The notes beneath the pieces are model-generated. The model saw nothing but the letters and a program-made list of their open reading frames with translations. It made no database searches and was not told where the DNA came from. A stretch of 39,455 nt of DNA from Candidatus Marinimicrobia bacterium CG08_land_8_20_14_0_20_45_22 (GTDB lineage Bacteria; Fidelibacterota; UBA2242): assembly GCA_002774355.1 (NCBI GenBank), contig PEYN01000049.1, positions 1 to 39,455 of the forward strand. The letters run 5' to 3'. The translations under genes were made by a program, and so were the position numbers. Within the stretch, counting starts at the first letter, position 1; the number at the start of each line of letters is the position of its first letter. This document shows, piece by piece, positions 29,520 to 39,455 of this stretch.

Positions 29520-30161
29520 CTAATCAACTTGTTCCACAAGCCCATTTTTCAAAGCATAACTCATCAGTTCAGCATTATTTCGTAATCCCGTCTTCTCCAA
29601 AATCCGAGACCGATTCGTACTGATCGTTTTGACGCTTAAATTTAGTTCTGATGCGATTTCTGAAACCATTTTGCCGGCCGCTAGCATTTTCATCACCTGA
29701 AACTCACGGTCAGAAAGTCTTTCGTGAAGTGGCTTATCTGAATGTGTATTGACTTCAGACGCTAATTTGATCGCTAAAGATGGATTGATATATTTGCCTT
29801 TATGAAAAATTTGCCGAACAGCAGACAAGAGTTCGACTGATGCGCTGTCTTTAGTTAAATATCCGTCTGCGCCCGATTTCATAACGCGAATTGCATATTG
29901 ATCTTCAGAATACATGGTTAATACTAAAATCTTTGATGGGATTCCCTGGCTTTTAACTTGTTTAATGATCTCGATGCCACTTTTTCCGGGCAATGAAATG
30001 TCCAAGAGAACTACATCCGGTCGATATTTTTCGATCTTGGCAAGTCCTTCGTCGCCGGTTCTGGCTTCGTCGATTATTTCGATGTCGGATTCATCACTAA
30101 AAATCTGCTTCAATCCTTCTCGAACGACTGTATGATCATCAACGATCAAAACGCGAATCAT
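29520..30161 (-). CDS. NarL/FixJ-type response regulator
   Basis: A 213-aa two-component transcription factor. The receiver (1-120) has Asp8/Asp9, phospho-acceptor Asp54 in VVLLDISLPG, Thr in VLTMYS and Lys in YLTKDS. The C-terminal LuxR-type HTH contains LSDREFQVMKMLAAGKM and EIASELNLSVKTISTNRSRI. Its ATG overlaps the stop of the histidine kinase as ATGA, so the two are a cognate pair. Target genes may include the upstream hyp genes, but no binding site can be named. Confidence 0.95.
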   Translation of the reverse strand: MIRVLIVDDHTVVREGLKQIFSDESDIEIIDEARTGDEGLAKIEKYRPDVVLLDISLPGKSGIEIIKQVKSQGIPSKILVLTMYSEDQYAIRVMKSGADGYLTKDSASVELLSAVRQIFHKGKYINPSLAIKLASEVNTHSDKPLHERLSDREFQVMKMLAAGKMVSEIASELNLSVKTISTNRSRILEKTGLRNNAELMSYALKNGLVEQVD

Positions 30162-31231
30162 GTAATGTCCTTATGATCAAGCGGAATGGTAACTTGAACA
30201 ATCGTTCCGCCGTTTTCCGAGCCTTGAATATCGACACGTCCTCCAAATGGATGAACACGCTCGCGTACACCGATAAGCCCAAGTGATTGTGGATCGAATA
30301 TTTTTTCTTCAGGAATGCCGACGCCGTTGTCCCGAATATTCAAATTCAAAATATGGTCTTTGATTTCGAGCCCGGCTTCGACGCGCGTAGCGAATGAATG
30401 TCTCGCGACGTTCGTTAGTGTTTCTTGAAATATCCGGAAAATGGCAATTGCACGATTTTGGTCGAGTGCTATTTCCTCCTGACATAATTTTAGATTACAC
30501 GAAATTCCAGTTCGGTTTTGAAATTCACCGCAATACCATTCGACCGCCGCCGTTAAGCCTAAATCGTCAATTAACCCAGGTCTAAGTTCTGTAGAAATTC
30601 TCCGCACCGTTTGAATCGTGGAATCAATGAGTTGTGACATAGATTCGATCTTGTCGATAACCGTTTTTTGATCTGGCGTAACCTTTTTCATCAGCCAGTT
30701 CAGATCCATTTTCAAGGCCGTCATCGATTGCCCAAGTTCATCGTGAATTTCACGGGCTATATTGGCGCGTTCTTCTTCACGGATTGATTGTAAGTGCGCC
30801 GAAAGATTCCTTAACTGATCGCGCGAGTTTTTCATCTCCCTTTCAACCAGTTTCCGGTCGGTGATATCGATGACAATCCCCCGAAGACCGGAAGTCAAGC
30901 CATTCTGCCGGATCGGATGAGAAAAGATTAACGCTTGAAAAACGCTCCCGTCTTTGCGCAGAGCGGTGTATTCGTATCCTTCAACCTTTTTGCTTTTTAA
31001 AATGTGATAAACATTTTCAGTGACCCGTTTTCTATCTTCCGGGACGAAGAGTTGAGCAAAATTGACACCTTTTACAATATCTTCCTCCGAATACCCAAAT
31101 GTCTCATAACCATATTGATTGGTAAAACGGCACTTTCCATCAATATCGAGTTCAAAAACTGTTTGCGGTAGATGATCGACCAATTCGCGAAAATCGTTTT
31201 CGCACCTGCTATTTTCGTTTCTCGAAGGCAT
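30158..31231 (-). CDS. soluble PAS-domain histidine kinase (HisKA_3)
   Basis: A 357-aa cytosolic sensor kinase with no membrane segment. A PAS domain (about 13-125: FELDIDGKCRFTNQYGYETF, FVPEDRKRV, DITDRK) is followed by a NarX-type dimerisation domain with phospho-acceptor His163 in REIHDELGQSM and an ATPase domain with DNGVGIPEEK and GLIGVRERV. The PAS ligand is unknown; an intracellular redox or gas signal is plausible next to hydrogenase genes. The ATG at 31231 is preferred to TTG 31237; it starts two bases after the ACT-protein stop. Confidence 0.93.
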   Translation of the reverse strand: MPSRNENSRCENDFRELVDHLPQTVFELDIDGKCRFTNQYGYETFGYSEEDIVKGVNFAQLFVPEDRKRVTENVYHILKSKKVEGYEYTALRKDGSVFQALIFSHPIRQNGLTSGLRGIVIDITDRKLVEREMKNSRDQLRNLSAHLQSIREEERANIAREIHDELGQSMTALKMDLNWLMKKVTPDQKTVIDKIESMSQLIDSTIQTVRRISTELRPGLIDDLGLTAAVEWYCGEFQNRTGISCNLKLCQEEIALDQNRAIAIFRIFQETLTNVARHSFATRVEAGLEIKDHILNLNIRDNGVGIPEEKIFDPQSLGLIGVRERVHPFGGRVDIQGSENGGTIVQVTIPLDHKDIT

Positions 31232-31233
31232 AT

Positions 31234-31746
31234 TCAATCGGGCAAATCAAACGCGTCTTCCAGTGCGGTTTTTGCCACATCCATCTCCTTTTCATCGATA
31301 ACCAAACTCACGGATGAAATACTCGTCGAAATGCCGAGAATGTTTATTTCTGCCCGACCCAGCGTCGAACACGTCTGTCCGGCAATCAGCGGCTTCTCGC
31401 GAAAATGCGGTCCATAAATGCAGATGATGCCGACATCTTCCAACCAGCGATCGCCTTTTGCATGGACGACATCGCGAAGTCCTTCGATAATCGACTGCAC
31501 TTTTTTCTTGAATCCCGACTGAAAACAAAAAGTAATGTCGGCAGTCCCTTCACAATTCCAACTTTCAGTAATGAACTCGATGTTGACTTGATTTTGTCCA
31601 AGAAAGCTAAGCACTTTCCCGGCAATTCCAGGTTGATTAGGCGCCGATAAAATCGAAACCATAACCAGATCATGATTTTCGATGATCCCACCAATCTTGA
31701 TCTTTTCGCTTTTATCAGGTTCTTGTATTAATTCCATCGGTGTCAT
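31234..31746 (-). CDS. stand-alone tandem ACT-domain protein, aspartokinase-regulatory-like
   Basis: A 170-aa soluble protein with two ACT domains. The first (about 26-95) has VSILSAPNQPGIAGKVLSFL; the second (about 105-168) has PLIAGQTCSTLGRAEINILG and ISTSISSVSLVI, close to the regulatory half of aspartokinases, but there is no kinase domain. ACT domains bind amino acids or similar small ligands. It is embedded between a receiver and a histidine kinase gene, so it may modulate the kinase or carry an extra signal. Its start has no strong binding site. Confidence 0.82.
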   Translation of the reverse strand: MTPMELIQEPDKSEKIKIGGIIENHDLVMVSILSAPNQPGIAGKVLSFLGQNQVNIEFITESWNCEGTADITFCFQSGFKKKVQSIIEGLRDVVHAKGDRWLEDVGIICIYGPHFREKPLIAGQTCSTLGRAEINILGISTSISSVSLVIDEKEMDVAKTALEDAFDLPD

Positions 31747-31770
31747 TTTACTACCGAAAATCAGCGAAGT

Positions 31771-32151
31771 TTATTTTGTCAGACATTTTTTAATAATTTC
31801 AACCAATCGGTTCGGCATGACCGGTTTTTCGATGAACTCATCGACAGGCAATGTGTCGGAATCCTTTTCAAACTGGATACCCATTTGTTGAGACACAGCC
31901 GTTAGCATCACAATTGGAATACCGGCGATTTCCGGATTTGCGCGAATGTCGTGTGCGACTTCAAATCCTTCGTCCCACGTCGCCATCATCACGTCGAGAA
32001 TGACCAAATCCGGACGAATTTTGAGGATTTCCCCCATTCCTCTCGTTCCATCTTGCGCGTCAAACACTTCGTAGCCATTCTTTTCCAGCGTCAATCTCAG
32101 AACTTCTACAAGGTCGATATCATCATCAATAATCAGTATCTTTTTTTTCAT
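31771..32151 (-). CDS. single-domain response regulator (CheY-like)
   Basis: A 126-aa receiver without output domain. Asp9/Asp10/Asp11 form the acidic pocket, Asp53 in LVILDVMMATWDEGFEV is the phospho-acceptor, and Lys lies in EKPVMPNRLV. The WDEGFEVA insertion is typical of stand-alone receivers in multi-step systems. It lies 44 bases after hypB and 24 before the ACT gene. It may compete with or relay phosphate from the histidine kinase two genes downstream. Confidence 0.92.
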   Translation of the reverse strand: MKKKILIIDDDIDLVEVLRLTLEKNGYEVFDAQDGTRGMGEILKIRPDLVILDVMMATWDEGFEVAHDIRANPEIAGIPIVMLTAVSQQMGIQFEKDSDTLPVDEFIEKPVMPNRLVEIIKKCLTK

Positions 32152-32195
32152 AGCCCATCATCTATGTTTACTTCAAATGCCGTAGGAAATTACTC

Positions 32196-32879
32196 TTAAC
32201 ATTTCGATTTCGCAATATTATCCTTTCCACAAAATCGAATTAGTTGATCGCCAAATTCATCAATGCCTTCTTTAGTTATAGATGAAATCTGTGAAATGGT
32301 AATTTTTGGATTGATTTTCAGGATATTAGATTTTAAAAATTCTAAATCAAAATCCAGGAACGGAAGCAAATCGATCTTGCTAATAAACGCATATTGGCAA
32401 ACACGAAACATGAGCGGATATTTGAGCGGTTTGTCTTCTCCCTCGGTAACACTGAGTAAAACGACATTCAATGCCGCGCCCGTATCAAATTCCGCCGGAC
32501 AAACCAGATTCCCGACATTTTCGATGAAAATGATGTCCATTTTCTCTAAGTCGAGCGGCTCTAAAGCGGGTAAAATTACCTCCGCACACAAATGACAATC
32601 GCCGCCAAACAGCTCGGTATTGATTTGTGATATGGGAACGTTCAACGGTTGTAGCCGCTTCGCATCGCAAGTTGTTGTAATATCTCCCTCGACCACGCCA
32701 ACGCGAATGCCTTTTTTCTGAAGACTCGGGATTAGGTTCTCCAGAAGTGCGGTTTTCCCGGAACCTGGCGAACTCATAATATTAACCAGTAATGTATTGG
32801 AACGAATCATCTTCTGTCGTATTTCATCTGCAGTCTTCGCATTCGCTTCCAGCACTTTTCGAACAATAAACAGTTCCAC
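32196..32879 (-). CDS. hypB: hydrogenase nickel-incorporation GTPase HypB
   Basis: Inserts nickel into [NiFe] hydrogenase with HypA. G1 is SSPGSGKTALLENL; the metal site at the G domain is GGDCHLCAEV with Cys-His plus the later Cys in NLVCPAEFD; KIDLLP is the base-recognition motif. At 227 aa it has neither the His-rich nickel-storage stretch nor the N-terminal high-affinity CXXCGC motif found in E. coli HypB. GTG start with AGGAG at six bases. Starts 8 bases after hypA. Confidence 0.96.
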   Translation of the reverse strand: MELFIVRKVLEANAKTADEIRQKMIRSNTLLVNIMSSPGSGKTALLENLIPSLQKKGIRVGVVEGDITTTCDAKRLQPLNVPISQINTELFGGDCHLCAEVILPALEPLDLEKMDIIFIENVGNLVCPAEFDTGAALNVVLLSVTEGEDKPLKYPLMFRVCQYAFISKIDLLPFLDFDLEFLKSNILKINPKITISQISSITKEGIDEFGDQLIRFCGKDNIAKSKC

Positions 32880-32887
32880 GTTAACTC

Positions 32888-33241
32888 CTATTCCTCATTT
32901 ATTTCGATGGATTCAATAAACATTTCAGAACCTGAAAGCATTTCGATTTCGGTTCCAGAGCAATTTTGGCAAACAAATTCAGGTTCATCGATCGTTGATT
33001 CGGCGCCACACGACAGGCATCTGATTTTAATCGGCAATATTCGAATTACCAACTCCGCGTTTGCGAGATCCGAATGCTCTTTTTTGATCGTGTTAAAACC
33101 GAATGTTAGCGACTCAGGTATGATTGCGTTCAGTTTGCCCGCCACAAAAACAATTCTACTGATTTTTTGAACAATCTGCCGTTTTTCGATCTCATCTTCC
33201 ACAAGCGTGATGATATTTTCTGCAATTGTCAGTTCGTGCAA
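32888..33241 (-). CDS. hypA: hydrogenase nickel-incorporation protein HypA
   Basis: A 117-aa nickel chaperone for HypB. MHELTIAENI gives the conserved nickel-binding Met1-His2, and two CXXC pairs (CLSCGAES and CQNCSGTE) form the structural zinc site. The start is TTG, fixed by the invariant MHEL sequence and by GGAG eight bases upstream. It follows hypE by 34 bases. Confidence 0.95.
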   Translation of the reverse strand: MHELTIAENIITLVEDEIEKRQIVQKISRIVFVAGKLNAIIPESLTFGFNTIKKEHSDLANAELVIRILPIKIRCLSCGAESTIDEPEFVCQNCSGTEIEMLSGSEMFIESIEINEE

Positions 33242-33249
33242 AATCTCAT

Positions 33250-33253
33250 CTCC
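33250..33253 (-). promoter_or_regulatory. ribosome binding site deciding the TTG start of hypA
   Basis: GGAG on the minus strand, eight bases from TTG 33241, which must be the start because the nickel site needs Met-His at the N-terminus. Confidence 0.75.
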
Positions 33254-33275
33254 GTCTTTAATTCTATCGTTTTCA

Positions 33276-34292
33276 TCAACATATTCTGGGCAACTGTTCC
33301 GTTGTCAGCATGTCGAGAATCCTATAACTGCCGATACCGGTTTTAAGTAAAACTTTTCCTTTCGGCTCATCGATTACTTCTCCAATGACAGTGGCGGAAT
33401 TGTCCTCTGAGAATGATTTCATGATTGATAATGCATTTCCAGCAGATTTTCCCCCGACTATTGCAACGACTTTTCCTTCGTTTGCCAAATATAGCGGATC
33501 GAATCCCAGCGGTTCACACAATCCGCGCACCGATTCGCGGACAGGAACCAGATTTTCGTCAATGCGAATCCCGAATGGCTGTTTCCAGACAAATTCGTTC
33601 AAAGTAGTCGCCAGTCCGCCTCGCGTTGGATCCCGCATGATTCGTAAATCTGTAATCTCATCGACCATTTTTTGAGTCAACCGACTGATTAAAGCGCAAT
33701 CGCTGATGATCTCGGCGGAGATATTAAATTCCTCACGTGCTTTAATGATGGCGGCTTCGTGATCGCCCATCCAGCCGCTGACGATTATCACATCGCCAAC
33801 TTGAACCGATTTCAAACTCAGCCGGGCTTTAGAATGTTGAACGCCGATTCCTGCGGTATTGATGAAAATTCCGTCAGCGGCACCATGTTCAACAACTTTC
33901 GTATCGCCTGTGACAATCTGAACGCCAGCAAGGTCAGCCGTATTTTTCATCGAAATGACGATTTTTTCTAATGTATCAAGTTCAAATCCTTCTTCGAGGA
34001 TCATCGCGCAAGATAAATAGAGCGGCGTCGCTCCGCAAACCGCCAGATCGTTGACCGTTCCTGTCACCGATAATTTTCCGATATCTCCGCCGGGGAAAAA
34101 GAGTGGCTTAACGGCATGCGAATCCGTCGTAAACACAATTTTTCCGCCCGGATTTTCAAGGATCGCCGAATCGAGAAGTTCATCCAGAAGATGATTTGAA
34201 AAATGCTTTACAAACAGCGAATGAATCAATTCATGAGTCAATTTCCCACCGCTTCCATGTGCCTTAACGATTTTTCCGGTTACTTCACTCAT
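33276..34292 (-). CDS. hypE: hydrogenase maturation protein HypE
   Basis: A 338-aa PurM-like ATPase that dehydrates a carbamoyl group, received from HypF on its C-terminal Cys, to the thiocyanate that becomes the cyanide ligand. The C-terminus is QLPRIC, the essential PRIC tail. AHGSGGKLTHELI, FTTDSHAV, GTVNDLAVCGATPLYLSCA and DPTRGGLATTLNE are the expected motifs. The start overlaps the hypD stop in TAATG. Confidence 0.97.
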   Translation of the reverse strand: MSEVTGKIVKAHGSGGKLTHELIHSLFVKHFSNHLLDELLDSAILENPGGKIVFTTDSHAVKPLFFPGGDIGKLSVTGTVNDLAVCGATPLYLSCAMILEEGFELDTLEKIVISMKNTADLAGVQIVTGDTKVVEHGAADGIFINTAGIGVQHSKARLSLKSVQVGDVIIVSGWMGDHEAAIIKAREEFNISAEIISDCALISRLTQKMVDEITDLRIMRDPTRGGLATTLNEFVWKQPFGIRIDENLVPVRESVRGLCEPLGFDPLYLANEGKVVAIVGGKSAGNALSIMKSFSEDNSATVIGEVIDEPKGKVLLKTGIGSYRILDMLTTEQLPRIC

Positions 34293-35392
34293 TATAAATT
34301 TTTATTAACCTTATTGTATTTAAACCATGCCGCGCAGGCGCCTTCCGAACTCACCATGCAAGCGCCGATCGGATTCTCCGGCGTACAGTTTTTCCCGAAA
34401 AGCAAGCAATCAGACGGCGTTTTGACACCTCTCATAATCTCGCCACACAAGCAGGCGGGATTTTCTGTGATTTCTGTCCGCGGAATATCAAATATTTTAG
34501 CCGCATCGAATCCAGAATATTTTGACCTGATCCGCAAGCCACTGTTGACTATCGACCCAAGTCCACGCCAAACCGAATCACTCGGCTCAAAAACGCGATT
34601 GATTACTTCGAGCGCACGGAGATTTCCTTCGGGACGGACAGCACGTTTATATTGAATCTCGACACGACTGTTACCATCGATAATTTGCCGAACGATCCGG
34701 TAAATCGACTCGAGAATATCGTTTGGTTCGAAGCCGGATACGACACAAGGAACGTGGTAATCGCGGGATAAAAAGCCAAAAATCTCACCGCCGGTAATTG
34801 CGGAAACGTGCCCCGGACAAATGAATCCGTCAATCATCGTTTCCCCAGAATCCAGAAGCGCTTTCATTGCATAAGGCATTGTTTTATGTCCACATAGAAC
34901 GTAGAAATTCCTGATTTTCCGTCTTTCCGCCAATAGAATGACTGAGGCAACCAATGGCGCGGTTGTTTCAAATCCGATTCCCAAAAAGACGACCCTTTTC
35001 GATGGATTGGATTCTGCCATTTCAAGCGCCTCAGACGGCGAGTAACAGATCCTCACATCTGCGCTGGAAGATTTTTCCTGCTGGAGACTGGATTCGCTTC
35101 CCGGAACGCGCATCATATCACCAAAAGTCGCCACGATCGTTCCTTTTTGCCGGGAAATAAAAATAGCCGCGTCGATAAAATCATTCGGCGTGACGCAAAC
35201 CGGACAGCCAGGACCGCTGATCAGTCTTAGATTTTCCGGTAACAAAGCGGTAATTCCATACCGAAAAATAGCAACAGTGTGACCGCCGCAAACTTCCATG
35301 ATCGAAATTTGTTTTTTCGGCATCATTCTCCAAATTTCCGACGAGATTTTCGCAGCGATTTCGGGATCACGGAATTCGTCAATGAATTTCAT
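34292..35392 (-). CDS. hypD: hydrogenase maturation protein HypD
   Basis: A 366-aa Fe-S protein that with HypC assembles the Fe(CN)2CO unit. EVCGGHT and SGPGCPVCVTP hold the redox-active Cys, FLGIGFETTAP and ICPGHVSAITG are conserved, and the C-terminal Cys-rich segment (CLCGEIMRGVKTPSDC then FGKNCTP and GACMVSSEGAC) binds the [4Fe-4S] cluster. ATGA overlap with hypC. Confidence 0.97.
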   Translation of the reverse strand: MKFIDEFRDPEIAAKISSEIWRMMPKKQISIMEVCGGHTVAIFRYGITALLPENLRLISGPGCPVCVTPNDFIDAAIFISRQKGTIVATFGDMMRVPGSESSLQQEKSSSADVRICYSPSEALEMAESNPSKRVVFLGIGFETTAPLVASVILLAERRKIRNFYVLCGHKTMPYAMKALLDSGETMIDGFICPGHVSAITGGEIFGFLSRDYHVPCVVSGFEPNDILESIYRIVRQIIDGNSRVEIQYKRAVRPEGNLRALEVINRVFEPSDSVWRGLGSIVNSGLRIRSKYSGFDAAKIFDIPRTEITENPACLCGEIMRGVKTPSDCLLFGKNCTPENPIGACMVSSEGACAAWFKYNKVNKNL

Positions 35393-35628
35393 CTTCTCCC
35401 TTCCCGTTTGGCGACAGTTTCGCTTATTTCGTTCCAGATTCCAAGCGTTTCAAGCGCCGCCGCCACATCCAACTTCTCAATGGCAAATCCTGCGTGAACA
35501 ATAATATAATCGCCGATTTTTATGCCAGAGAGCAGATCGAGATTCGCACGATAAATGACTCCGCCGACATCCGCTTCTGCGACATTGTCCTGAATTTTGA
35601 TAACTTTCATCGGAATAGCCAAACACAT
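35389..35628 (-). CDS. hypC: hydrogenase maturation chaperone HypC
   Basis: A 79-aa chaperone that holds the iron ligand complex with HypD and delivers it to the large hydrogenase subunit. MCLAIPMKVIKI carries the essential N-terminal Cys2; GDYIIVHAGFAIEKL is the OB-like core. It starts 6 bases after the hypF stop and overlaps hypD by four bases. Confidence 0.96.
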   Translation of the reverse strand: MCLAIPMKVIKIQDNVAEADVGGVIYRANLDLLSGIKIGDYIIVHAGFAIEKLDVAAALETLGIWNEISETVAKREGRR

Positions 35629-35634
35629 AATTCG

Positions 35635-37989
35635 TCAGTTCTCCATCGATTGTTCTTTCTTTGCTACAGCGCTTGCGATAAGCAATTGTCCAACGGAAAT
35701 TCCGCCATCGTTCGGCGGAACGCGCCGATGCGTCCAAACATGAAATCCGTTTGCTTTTAATAGTTCATTAAGCATTGTCAGCAGATGAATATTCATAAAA
35801 ACGCCACCACTCAACACAACATCGTTGACGCCAACCCATTGTCTTATTTTATCTGTCACATCAGAAAGTACATTCGCAAGTCCGCAGTGAAATTTCGCAG
35901 AAATCAGTCCTGCGTCTATCCCATTTAAAACATCCTCGACAACTTCTGCAATGACTTCTTTCCATTCAAGTATAAACATGTCGTTTTGACTTTCAATTGT
36001 AAATGGGTACGCGTCAACCGTCACACCAGCAATTGACTGTTCAAATTCAATAGCCGCCTGCCCTTCATAGTGAATATGATTTCGGATTCCGGCAATCGCC
36101 GCCACGCCGTCGAATAGTCGTCCGCAACTTGAAGTGATTGGCATATTTATCTGATTCTCAATCGCTTTCAGGATTATTTCCAAATCGTCCGGTTTAACAG
36201 TTTTCAAAAACGGCAAATCATATTTGACAAATTCTTTCCCAAAAACCTGATGCAGATAACCAACTGCCATTTGCCATGGATTTCGGATCGCAGAGTTTCC
36301 GCCGGGCATTCCTACATTTTTAAAATGTGCCAACCGCCAAAATCCATCAAATTCTGCCAATAAAATCTCGCCGCCCCAAATCGTTCCGTCGCTTCCATAT
36401 CCTGTGCCGTCCAAAACGATTGCCAACGCCCGGGAAATTCCGTTCTCTACCATACATGAAACCGCATGCGCATGATGATGCTGAACACCGATTTTGCGAA
36501 TTTTCCTTCCGGACTGAGTTTCAGATAAATATTCCGCCGCGAATCGCGTGCTCAGATAATCTGGATGAAGGTCGAATGCCACAATTTCCGGATCGATGTC
36601 AAAGACTTTCCGATAATGTCGAATGCCGGAATCGAAAGATTGCAAAACTTCAATATTTTCCATATCTCCGATATGCTGGCTGAGATAGACTTGATTGTTT
36701 TTCGCCAACGCGAATGTGTTTTTTTGTTCGGCGCCGCAAGCCAAGATTGGTTGATCGAATTCCCAATCCAAAGATATTTGTTCGGGAGAATATCCTCTGG
36801 CTTTTCGGATCGGATATTCGTGTCCTTCCCAAATTCGTATGACGGAATCGTCGCACCGAGTTTGAATTCGCCGGTCGTGTATCAAAAAATAATCCGCTAT
36901 AGCGGTTAATCTGGCAATTGCATCATCATTTTTGAAAACGATTGGTTCGTCGCTTATATTTCCACTGGTCATCACCAACGGTTTTGGGTAAAAATGAAAA
37001 ATCAGATGATGAAGCGGCGAATATGGCAACATCGCGCCGATAAATTGATTCTTGGGCGCTACCGAAGGTGAAATTTCCCTGTTTGTCTTTTTCCTAAGTA
37101 AAACAATTGGATGCGTAACCTGTTGAAGGAGAGCGCGTTCGGCGTCAGTAACTTCACAATATTCTTCTATCATCGCCAGATTTGGAAACATCACCGCAAA
37201 CGGTTTATCCTCGCGGAATTTTCTGGCTCTAAGCGTGGCAACCGCGGATTCATTCTCCGCATTACAGGAAAGATGAAAACCGCCGATTCCTTTGACGGCA
37301 ACAATTTTTCCATCGGAATAAATCTTAGAAAGAACATTAAAAATCTCTTCATTTTGAAAAGAATCGCCACCGATCAGGTTAACTTTCCCATCCTTGCTGA
37401 GAAGATGAACACGCGGGCCGCAATTCGGGCAGGCGTTCGGCTGGGCGTGAAATCGGCGATCCTGTGGATCATCATATTCACGTTGACAATCCGGACACAT
37501 CGCAAAATCCTGCATGGTCGTTAATCCTCGGTCATACGGAACGTCCAGAGTTATCGTGAAACGGGGACCGCAATTCGTGCAATTAATAAAAGGATATAGA
37601 TATCTTCGATTTGTGGGATCGAATAATTCTTTCAGGCAATCATTACAAATGTCCAGATCCGGCGAAATCCGGGCGGTTTTTTCTGTCTCAGGTTGACTGT
37701 TAAAAATATTGAATTCCTGATATGTTTCGCGTTCTGAAATGGCTACGACTGATAACTCGTCTATTTGACTATGTTTCGGTGCTTCATTTCGAACATTTTT
37801 AAGGAATTTCTCCAGATCGTTTTTTTTACCTTGAATCAGAACCGTGACGCCGCCACTTGTATTGACTACGTAGCCGGTTAATCCACACTCATTTGCCAAG
37901 CGAAAAATAAACGGTCTGAATCCGACGCCCTGAACCACACCTGAAATGTTGAGTCTGTAAGTTGACAAATCTCTCCTGTTATTGATCAA
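35635..37989 (-). CDS. hypF: carbamoyltransferase HypF
   Basis: A 784-aa multidomain enzyme that makes carbamoyl-adenylate from carbamoyl phosphate and passes the carbamoyl group to HypE. In order: acylphosphatase (GVVQGVGFRPFIFRL, 1-95), two zinc fingers (CNDCLKEL with CTNCGP, CPDCQREY with CPNCGP), YrdC-like domain (GGFHLSCNAENESAV, VMTSGNISDEPIV), and Kae1-like domain with QHHHAHAVSC and VLSGGVFMN. Length is complete. The start is TTG with AAGGA at six bases. It heads the hyp-plus-signalling unit; the promoter in the 68 bases upstream is unclear. Confidence 0.97.
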   Translation of the reverse strand: MINNRRDLSTYRLNISGVVQGVGFRPFIFRLANECGLTGYVVNTSGGVTVLIQGKKNDLEKFLKNVRNEAPKHSQIDELSVVAISERETYQEFNIFNSQPETEKTARISPDLDICNDCLKELFDPTNRRYLYPFINCTNCGPRFTITLDVPYDRGLTTMQDFAMCPDCQREYDDPQDRRFHAQPNACPNCGPRVHLLSKDGKVNLIGGDSFQNEEIFNVLSKIYSDGKIVAVKGIGGFHLSCNAENESAVATLRARKFREDKPFAVMFPNLAMIEEYCEVTDAERALLQQVTHPIVLLRKKTNREISPSVAPKNQFIGAMLPYSPLHHLIFHFYPKPLVMTSGNISDEPIVFKNDDAIARLTAIADYFLIHDRRIQTRCDDSVIRIWEGHEYPIRKARGYSPEQISLDWEFDQPILACGAEQKNTFALAKNNQVYLSQHIGDMENIEVLQSFDSGIRHYRKVFDIDPEIVAFDLHPDYLSTRFAAEYLSETQSGRKIRKIGVQHHHAHAVSCMVENGISRALAIVLDGTGYGSDGTIWGGEILLAEFDGFWRLAHFKNVGMPGGNSAIRNPWQMAVGYLHQVFGKEFVKYDLPFLKTVKPDDLEIILKAIENQINMPITSSCGRLFDGVAAIAGIRNHIHYEGQAAIEFEQSIAGVTVDAYPFTIESQNDMFILEWKEVIAEVVEDVLNGIDAGLISAKFHCGLANVLSDVTDKIRQWVGVNDVVLSGGVFMNIHLLTMLNELLKANGFHVWTHRRVPPNDGGISVGQLLIASAVAKKEQSMEN

Positions 37990-38057: not shown

Positions 38058-38726
38058 CTACGATATTTTCGCTATACAATCAGGTTGATTGTTCTGTACA
38101 GAATTGACCCGATTGGCAACAGGATAAAATTCAAGATCACCAGAAAATGGTTTCAGTAGATTCATCGCCGAGGCTGGAGAAAAATTTTGACAACCCAGCC
38201 ATGCATTGAGTGCAGATTCGGTGAGAATCGCAGGCATCCGTTCGTGAATGAAACGCAGTTGCGAATTCGCTGATGTCGTGATGACAGTATAGGTAAGCTT
38301 TTGTTCGCCTGTTGGTGATTCCCATCGGTTCCAGAGTCCCGCCATCGGCAAAATCAGTCCGTCGGAATGATGAATAAAAAACGGCTGTTTATGTCCGACT
38401 TCCTGCCTCCATTCGTAGTAACCGTCGGAAATGACAACGCAACGATTGGAATCGACGAGATTTGAAAACGAAGGCTTCTCAAAAATTGTCTCGGCGCGGG
38501 CATTGATGAAAATTGGCAGGCTATTCGGATCCTTCGCCCATGAAGGAATCAATCCCCATTGCATCATTCTCACGACACGTGCGTTTTCACTTACCAAAAT
38601 TGGGACAAAATTCGTCGGCGCGATGTTATAACTCGGCTGATATGGAACCGATTCGTCCCACATCTGGATCGAGAGTTCCTCGATGATTTCCATTTTCCCT
38701 TTAGTCAACGTCTTCCGACCGCACAT
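38058..38726 (-). CDS. SRAP domain protein (YedK/HMCES family)
   Basis: A 222-aa protein that forms a stable covalent link to abasic sites in single-stranded DNA and so shields them. Catalytic Cys2 follows the initiator Met (MCGRKTL); Asn75, Arg77 and Glu79 lie in FINARAETI; DGYYEW holds the active Glu and FIHERMPAIL the His. YNIAPT and WGLIPSWAKD are also typical. It stands alone between dnaE and hypF, 94 bases after dnaE. Confidence 0.96.
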   Translation of the reverse strand: MCGRKTLTKGKMEIIEELSIQMWDESVPYQPSYNIAPTNFVPILVSENARVVRMMQWGLIPSWAKDPNSLPIFINARAETIFEKPSFSNLVDSNRCVVISDGYYEWRQEVGHKQPFFIHHSDGLILPMAGLWNRWESPTGEQKLTYTVITTSANSQLRFIHERMPAILTESALNAWLGCQNFSPASAMNLLKPFSGDLEFYPVANRVNSVQNNQPDCIAKIS

Positions 38727-38820
38727 AGGCTTTCCCAGTTAATGATGTTAGTTATTCATCTCATTCAAAATCTTTTTGAATATACACTTTCCGTTCAGGA
38801 AACCAAATTACTTTTCCCAA

Positions 38821-39455
38821 TTAACATTCCTTCGCAAACATCACTTCTCTGACGGAACGTTTGTAAATCGGCGCCGATTCTTTGGGTGTCATTTTTTCCG
38901 CTGTCTGCTGAAGACTGGCAAGTTTTTCAACGGTCACGGTGTATGTGCCGTAAGCCTCTTCGACTTTCCCACGCAGGACGAACAGCGTTTCCCAATGCAA
39001 TAAATCGCCGAATTGCTTATAAACCTCCGGAAACATCACACACTCGAAAATATCGGTTTCATCCTCAAACGTGACAAATTCCATCGGCTCTTCCCGCTGG
39101 GTGAAGGCGACTTTTCGCGTAATGTAAACACCGAGCAGGTTGATCGTCTGCTCGACATAGCGCGAGAGATCAATCGCTTTCTTGATTTTTCCATCAAAAA
39201 CCGGCAGAAATCGTTTCAGTGGATGTTCGGAAATCGGAAAACCAAACGACTCGATTTCCAGCGACAGAATTTCGTACTCGCTCAATTCCTGACGATGGCT
39301 TGCAAACGTCAACGGTCTGCGTTTACCTTTTTGTAGATAAAAACCGGCGACTTTGAACGCGATTTCCTGATGCGTCAATCCAGGCTCCAGATCGGCAAAA
39401 CAGCGGGAATTCGTCAGCGCCATCGCGTCGGAAAGGTCGATATCGATTCTCGACA
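38821..39455 (-). CDS. dnaE: DNA polymerase III alpha subunit-like protein, C-terminal part
   Basis: The frame continues through the right window edge, so only the last 210 residues are present. SLEIESFGFPISEHPL corresponds to the DnaE segment usually reading LG-Y-SGHPL, followed by the OB-fold: INLLGVYITRKVAF and EFVTFEDETDIFECVMFPEVYK. The ending is shorter than in E. coli DnaE, with no clear tau-binding C-terminal domain, which suggests a short DnaE or error-prone DnaE-like polymerase. Its location next to an SRAP gene fits a DNA-damage context. Confidence 0.85.
   Translation of the reverse strand, partial: SRIDIDLSDAMALTNSRCFADLEPGLTHQEIAFKVAGFYLQKGKRRPLTFASHRQELSEYEILSLEIESFGFPISEHPLKRFLPVFDGKIKKAIDLSRYVEQTINLLGVYITRKVAFTQREEPMEFVTFEDETDIFECVMFPEVYKQFGDLLHWETLFVLRGKVEEAYGTYTVTVEKLASLQQTAEKMTPKESAPIYKRSVREVMFAKEC

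Follow-up and report, generated by a model that had tools for sequence, protein, structure and literature searches.

[NiFe]-hydrogenase genes of Neomarinimicrobiota and Calditrichota linked to a single-domain receiver and an aspartokinase-like ACT protein

The window analyzed here is a stretch of 39,455 nucleotides, contig PEYN01000049.1 of Candidatus Marinimicrobia bacterium CG08_land_8_20_14_0_20_45_22, a Candidatus Neomarinimicrobiota assembly, in which the [NiFe]-hydrogenase maturation genes hypFCDEAB run into four signalling genes encoding a stand-alone receiver (REC), a stand-alone tandem-ACT protein (ACT), a PAS histidine kinase and a NarL-type regulator. The original prediction, made from the letters alone, had described this series of ten genes at 29520-37989, and open reading frames (ORFs) and Pfam matches bore it out, with all ten genes on the minus strand. 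Judged from sequence comparison, the four-gene module is a composite of an old hydrogenase-linked part, REC and ACT, and a PAS kinase and NarL regulator specific to the window's family. The tie between hydrogenase and signalling that had been proposed was strongly supported by the relatives, but its conserved unit is REC plus ACT, and it concerns the hydrogenase system as a whole (group 3b structural genes, protease or hyp) and not hyp maturation as such. With somewhat better than even confidence, we read the locus as a signalling module that adjusts either the expression of hydrogenase or its activity, in which ACT would serve as the ligand input to the kinase.

Genome contigs were scanned with an ACT alignment, and ORFs in the relatives received their names from BLAST matches to a small set of queries. 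The scan gave 60 loci, mainly from Neomarinimicrobiota and Calditrichota, with single loci labelled Melioribacteraceae, Fermentibacteria, Eisenbacteria, Caldisericaceae and Proteobacteria; most relatives were metagenome assemblies, and some contigs were short. Hydrogenase or hyp genes were present on the fetched stretch at 42 of the 60 ACT loci, and a kinase adjoined ACT at 51. Upstream sequence of 4 kb or more was available for 39 loci; hydrogenase or hyp genes were found in 35 of them and a same-strand REC in 33, which is the linkage in relatives on which the original prediction had been staked. The usual order was HydB-HydG-HydD (small subunit)-HydA (large subunit)-protease-REC-six-helix membrane kinase-ACT, seen in Neomarinimicrobiota, Calditrichota and one Melioribacteraceae assembly. 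HydB-HydG-HydD-HydA is the subunit set of the group 3b bidirectional NAD(P)-linked [NiFe]-hydrogenase, and both CxxC nickel motifs were present in the large subunits checked. The genome inferred to be that of Caldithrix abyssi carried HydB-HydG-HydD-HydA-protease-REC-kinase-ACT. The window resembles this module in encoding REC and a YGPHF-type ACT together with hyp genes; it lacks the usual six-helix kinase between REC and ACT and has a soluble PAS/HisKA_3 kinase behind ACT instead.

The linkage did not reflect general gene order. In distant locus pairs, with an ACT identity of at most 55%, same-position homologues were found at 44-56% for genes -1 to -7, at 0-1% for genes +1 to +8, and at 0-5% for genes -8 to -10. 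The edges of the module were sharp, running from HydB to ACT, and general synteny was gone. Bridge loci connected the usual arrangement with that of the window. Genome G216 (L170), from the same order and another family, encoded hypFCDEAB-HydB-HydG-HydD-HydA-protease-REC-ACT in a single run, and G221 encoded hypF...CDEAB-REC-ACT without a kinase; in these two and in G215, REC-ACT stood directly behind hydrogenase or hyp genes with no adjacent kinase or DNA-binding partner. Genome G144 and the Calditrichota-type locus L198 carried the series 3b hydrogenase-REC-kinase-ACT-hyp on one strand. Most simply, REC and ACT would originally have shared one locus with hyp and 3b hydrogenase genes; in the window's family, the 3b genes would then have left the locus, hypB would have come beside REC, and the PAS kinase/NarL pair would have been added behind ACT.

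Within that family, genera g2 and g7 had the same set as the window's genus g1 (hyp, REC, ACT, PAS kinase, NarL), with REC/ACT identities of 56-67% and, in relatives, hypB-REC gaps of 49-106 bases compared with 44 in the window. In every locus of the family that was examined NarL came after the PAS kinase, and among the loci seen the two occurred in this family only. At L021, L023 and L028 a group 4 (Mbh-like) [NiFe]-hydrogenase operon lay downstream of the set on the same contig; it encoded a second receiver, subunits resembling HydB and HydG, and a large subunit bearing RICGIC and DPCYCC motifs. In G003 and G005, hyp and the group 4 hydrogenase share a contig. Extra genes broke the hyp run in G005 (L022), and the group 4 operon of G005 and G012 closed with a six-helix membrane kinase. 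As a separate observation, the group 4 operon at L021 (14226-19949), L023, L127, L135 and L136 opened with a small receiver (RECb) and the HydB/HydG-like subunits; with these iron-sulfur and FAD/NAD subunits, it apparently encodes an NAD(P)-linked energy-converting hydrogenase. Directly behind ACT, at L171 (G215; 1-950) and L079 (5577-6524), another gene for a HydB-like iron-sulfur subunit started, whose product had about 49% identity to its counterpart in the group 4 operon; this suggests the start of a second hydrogenase operon. A few genes past ACT, L076 (11248-12951), L089 (7047-8768) and L094 (8535-10256) encoded a second, larger [NiFe] large subunit of 567-573 amino acids, probably a group 1-type uptake enzyme.

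The phyletic pattern was compared with HypD as the marker. Stand-alone ACT occurred in 48 of 245 Neomarinimicrobiota genomes, and HypD was found in 44 of these 48 versus 25 of the 197 others. Since one genus supplied many of the ACT genomes, the count was made by genus, and HypD was present in 21 of 22 genera with ACT versus 12 of 62 without (p=2e-10). In the class of the Melioribacteraceae match, only 1 of 245 genomes had a stand-alone ACT, and this locus may represent a transfer or mis-binning.

The properties of the four proteins were consistent with a signalling role. REC (31771..32151, minus strand, 126 amino acids) consisted of Response_reg alone by Pfam, and its alignment showed the Asp pocket, the Asp53 phospho-acceptor and Lys109 all conserved. 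It was 46-67% identical, across phyla, to 15 aligned REC family members of hydrogenase/hyp loci and 73% identical to the REC behind hypB in G012; no other receiver in the fetched DNA exceeded 36% identity. ACT (31234..31746, minus strand, 170 amino acids) contained two domains (Pfam ACT/ACT_9/ACT_7). Its structure was predicted with a local distance difference test score (pLDDT) of 93, and the best fold matches of the model were aspartokinase regulatory domains (e.g. 5yei, 3s1t, 2dtj), at a template modelling score (TM-score) of about 0.8-0.9 and 25-29% identity. The ACT family was marked by an invariant YGPHF[RK]E loop in the second ACT domain, where aspartokinases carry a GxGM-type loop. This region is a common effector-binding place of ACT domains, and because the loop is replaced there, the ligand of ACT may differ from Lys/Thr. 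The sensor kinase (30158..31237, minus strand, 359 amino acids; Pfam PAS, HisKA_3, HATPase_c) has a probable ATG start at 31231; no transmembrane segment was noticed by eye, and its orthologues in ten family genomes shared a near-invariant H-box, AREIHDELGQ. The NarL/FixJ-type response regulator (29520..30161, minus strand, 213 amino acids; Response_reg and GerE by Pfam) was the sole DNA-binding output in the four-gene set. A HisKA_3 kinase adjoining a REC-GerE regulator makes a NarL-type two-component gene pair, and no curated NCBIfam equivalog cut-off was reached. Pairs of the NarX/NarL kind (UhpB/UhpA, GacA/UvrY family) share the domain types, the adjacency and the overlap; unlike them, the pair of the window's family is linked to ACT, and in some of the genera to hyp as well.

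From these arrangements we infer a pathway, including its ligand, phosphotransfer partners, target genes and direction of control. The ancestral parts would be REC and ACT, usually with a six-helix kinase between them, directly behind a group-3b-type operon or with hyp; in the window's family, which has no 3b genes at the locus, REC lies behind hypB and ACT adjoins the soluble PAS/HisKA_3 kinase with its NarL partner. The ligand of ACT would be small, probably an amino acid or a metabolite related to one; with it bound, ACT would modulate the adjacent kinase, which may read a redox or metabolic cue through its PAS domain. The kinase would phosphorylate NarL and so control transcription of hydrogenase and/or hyp genes, while REC, having no output domain, might serve that pathway through protein contact, as a relay, or as a sink for phosphate. 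Both the capacity to make H2 and the maturation of nickel-iron enzymes would in this way be matched to the reductant from amino-acid fermentation. An amino-acid-type input is reasonable because a tie between amino-acid degradation and H2 has been proposed in some Marinimicrobia (PMC5688066), and peptide fermentation by Caldithrix abyssi yields H2 (PMC5317091). More tentatively, and at less than even probability, REC and ACT may form a control unit for [NiFe]-hydrogenases across Neomarinimicrobiota and Calditrichota, whose input is an amino-acid-type ligand and not H2, whose kinase is exchangeable between lineages, and through which the state of amino-acid fermentation directly sets expression, maturation or activity. 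The [NiFe]-hydrogenases of groups 3b and 4 occur widely as enzymes of fermentation and syntrophy. The recurrence of the set in two phyla points to an undescribed control of hydrogen metabolism, in which a sensor kinase can be swapped while the receiver and the partner with the ligand domain remain beside the enzyme. One of these phyla has a cultured representative, and the receiver/kinase/ACT set is a concrete, testable candidate for matching amino-acid supply to H2 production.

Several results weigh against a hydrogenase-tuning module. Four loci with adequate flanks (L074, L087, L090 and L103) had no hydrogenase, hyp or REC. In Calditrichota the association of ACT with HypD was absent (HypD in 17 of 23 with ACT versus 15 of 17 without, p=0.43), since HypD is nearly everywhere there. 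The ACT-kinase-NarL trio stood apart from hyp in genera g5 (G011, L025) and g6 (G012, L024/L130). A search of the window's own assembly (G000) with PF00374, the [NiFe] large subunit, found no match, though hypABCDEF is complete. An amino acid as the ACT ligand is a suggestion drawn from the predicted fold. The co-direction of the ten genes is weak evidence because the window is almost one-stranded, nearly all large ORFs of the 39 kb being on the minus strand, as seen along 2961-29333; ten same-strand genes were rejected as evidence in themselves.

In one alternative, the ACT-PAS kinase-NarL trio is a neighbour of the hyp operon but independent of it, with only REC hydrogenase-related and the trio regulating something else. 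In G012 the hypB-REC pair was retained while the trio was found elsewhere, adjoining dnaE, and in G011 it likewise lay beside dnaE; the confinement of the PAS kinase and NarL to one family, among the loci seen, and the nearly single strand of the window agree with this. However, ACT itself was hydrogenase-linked elsewhere, REC-ACT followed hydrogenase or hyp genes without any kinase in G216, G215 and G221, and the full hyp-REC-ACT-kinase-NarL series was retained across g1, g2 and g7 at REC/ACT identities of 56-67%, so that we regard independence as unlikely. A similarly low probability was given to REC and ACT acting post-transcriptionally on maturation or activity (HypB, the 3b enzyme and the protease being possible targets), with NarL as a side branch. 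REC is the most conserved signalling part and has no output domain, and the three kinase-free loci also lack an adjoining DNA-binding partner; on the other hand, that REC or ACT touches Hyp proteins or hydrogenase is itself a proposal, and stand-alone receivers often work in phosphorelays.

Two-component control linked to hydrogenases is known from HupT/HupR and HoxJ/HoxA. The HupUV/HoxBC-HupT/HoxJ-HupR/HoxA systems resemble the window in placing two-component control, with a soluble PAS kinase, beside hydrogenase and hyp genes. They differ in having a dedicated regulatory hydrogenase and an NtrC-type (sigma-54) regulator, whereas the window has a NarL-type regulator (Response_reg and GerE), the enzymes linked here are of group 3b or group 4, and what is conserved is the stand-alone receiver together with the aspartokinase-like ACT. 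If sensing of H2 or redox state proceeded as in those systems, the 3b hydrogenase would be the sensor, read by REC and the kinase through contact. This would suit the position of REC and the kinase directly behind the hydrogenase protease gene in most loci, and the sensory [NiFe] group 2b is a 'histidine kinase-linked' class in HydDB (PMC5037454). We nevertheless consider it improbable, because the linked hydrogenases are of catalytic type (3b or group 4, with NAD(P)- and ferredoxin-type subunits), no regulatory group 2b hydrogenase was found in the window or its own genome, the window's regulator is not NtrC-type, and an ACT protein is not known to be part of HupUV/HoxBC-type systems. That ACT is a detached aspartokinase beta-type subunit for lysine/threonine synthesis, here by chance, is very improbable: the predicted tandem ACT fold and the sequence do match aspartokinase regulatory domains, but ACT is a stand-alone gene beside a kinase and, in relatives, hydrogenase genes, no amino-acid kinase domain (and no catalytic aspartokinase gene) was found among its window neighbours (signalling and hyp genes), it has its own invariant loop, stand-alone ACT proteins scored at least 110 bits even when cut while full aspartokinases scored at most 99, and the hydrogenase linkage recurs across phyla.

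What is new, compared with known hydrogenase-linked two-component control, is the REC/kinase/ACT version without a regulatory hydrogenase or NtrC-type regulator. The group 3b sulfhydrogenase of Caldithrix abyssi (Cabys_3226-3229; PMC5317091) has the same subunit order as the hydrogenase upstream of the relatives' REC-kinase-ACT. The genome paper names this 3b hydrogenase without discussing the genes for receiver, kinase and ACT behind it; 'two-component', 'histidine kinase' and 'response regulator' have zero occurrences in it. The original prediction had recognized no described system in this combination, and a description of hydrogenase, ACT and two-component genes together was likewise not found in the open-access papers searched, most subscription papers being outside that scope.

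We further considered which hydrogenase the window's maturation genes would serve. The window's own assembly is 97% complete in 213 contigs, and the window carries its sole HypD. Genome G001, of the same genus, encoded a large subunit of group 4 in which the RICGIC and DPCYCC motifs were present, and because a same-genus genome has the large subunit, its absence from G000 is most likely due to an assembly gap; a true absence from the organism is not the most likely explanation. One candidate, a protein on contig C171 of G000, was rejected as a [NiFe]-hydrogenase: it was 33% identical to the relatives' large subunit, lay at a contig end, and lacked both CxxC motifs. A weaker match to the relatives' large subunit was present on contig C112. 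Contig C171 (L128, 3831-11420) carries an Mrp/complex I-like operon whose 49-kDa subunit has neither CxxC nickel motif.

The maturation set HypABCDEF was encoded in full in the window (6/6 proteins), with Pfam scores above cut-off, all genes on the minus strand. It begins with hypF (35635..37989; 784 amino acids), the carbamoyltransferase for the CN ligands, with Pfam acylphosphatase, zf-HYPF, Sua5_yciO_yrdC, HypF_C and HypF_C_2 matches, followed by hypC (35389..35628; HupF_HypC, 87 bits) and hypD (34292..35392; HypD, 503 bits). HypE (33276..34292; AIRS and AIRS_C) ends in ...PRIC, a C-terminal Cys being an expected feature of this protein. The nickel-insertion genes are hypA (32888..33241; HypA, 99 bits) and the GTPase gene hypB (32196..32879; cobW/HypB/UreG), whose identity to the relatives' hypB was 54-64%. 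The junctions from hypF to hypB were 6 bases (hypF-hypC), an overlap of 4 (hypC-hypD), an overlap of 1 (hypD-hypE), 34 (hypE-hypA) and 8 (hypA-hypB). The gap of 44 bases between hypB and REC (32152..32195) was the largest of the series, so the earlier statement that no gap exceeds 44 bases holds. The last three genes had been described as separated by gaps of two bases or by overlaps, which was right for ACT-kinase (2 bases, presuming the ATG at 31231; a TTG start would give an overlap) and kinase-NarL (overlap of 4), but not for REC-ACT, where the gap is 24. No promoter- or terminator-like match was found on the minus strand of the 44-base gap by a consensus scan that is uninformative for this phylum; it gave fewer promoter-like sites than in shuffled sequence, and its silence therefore says little. 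A single ten-gene transcript is plausible. The stretch before hypF on the same strand (38058-39423) contained a gene for an SRAP-domain protein and the terminal part of dnaE, which the contig end truncates. The order dnaE-SRAP-hypF was also found in G001 (L129), and SRAP-hypF in G012 and G011, where dnaE was located downstream of ACT-kinase-NarL.

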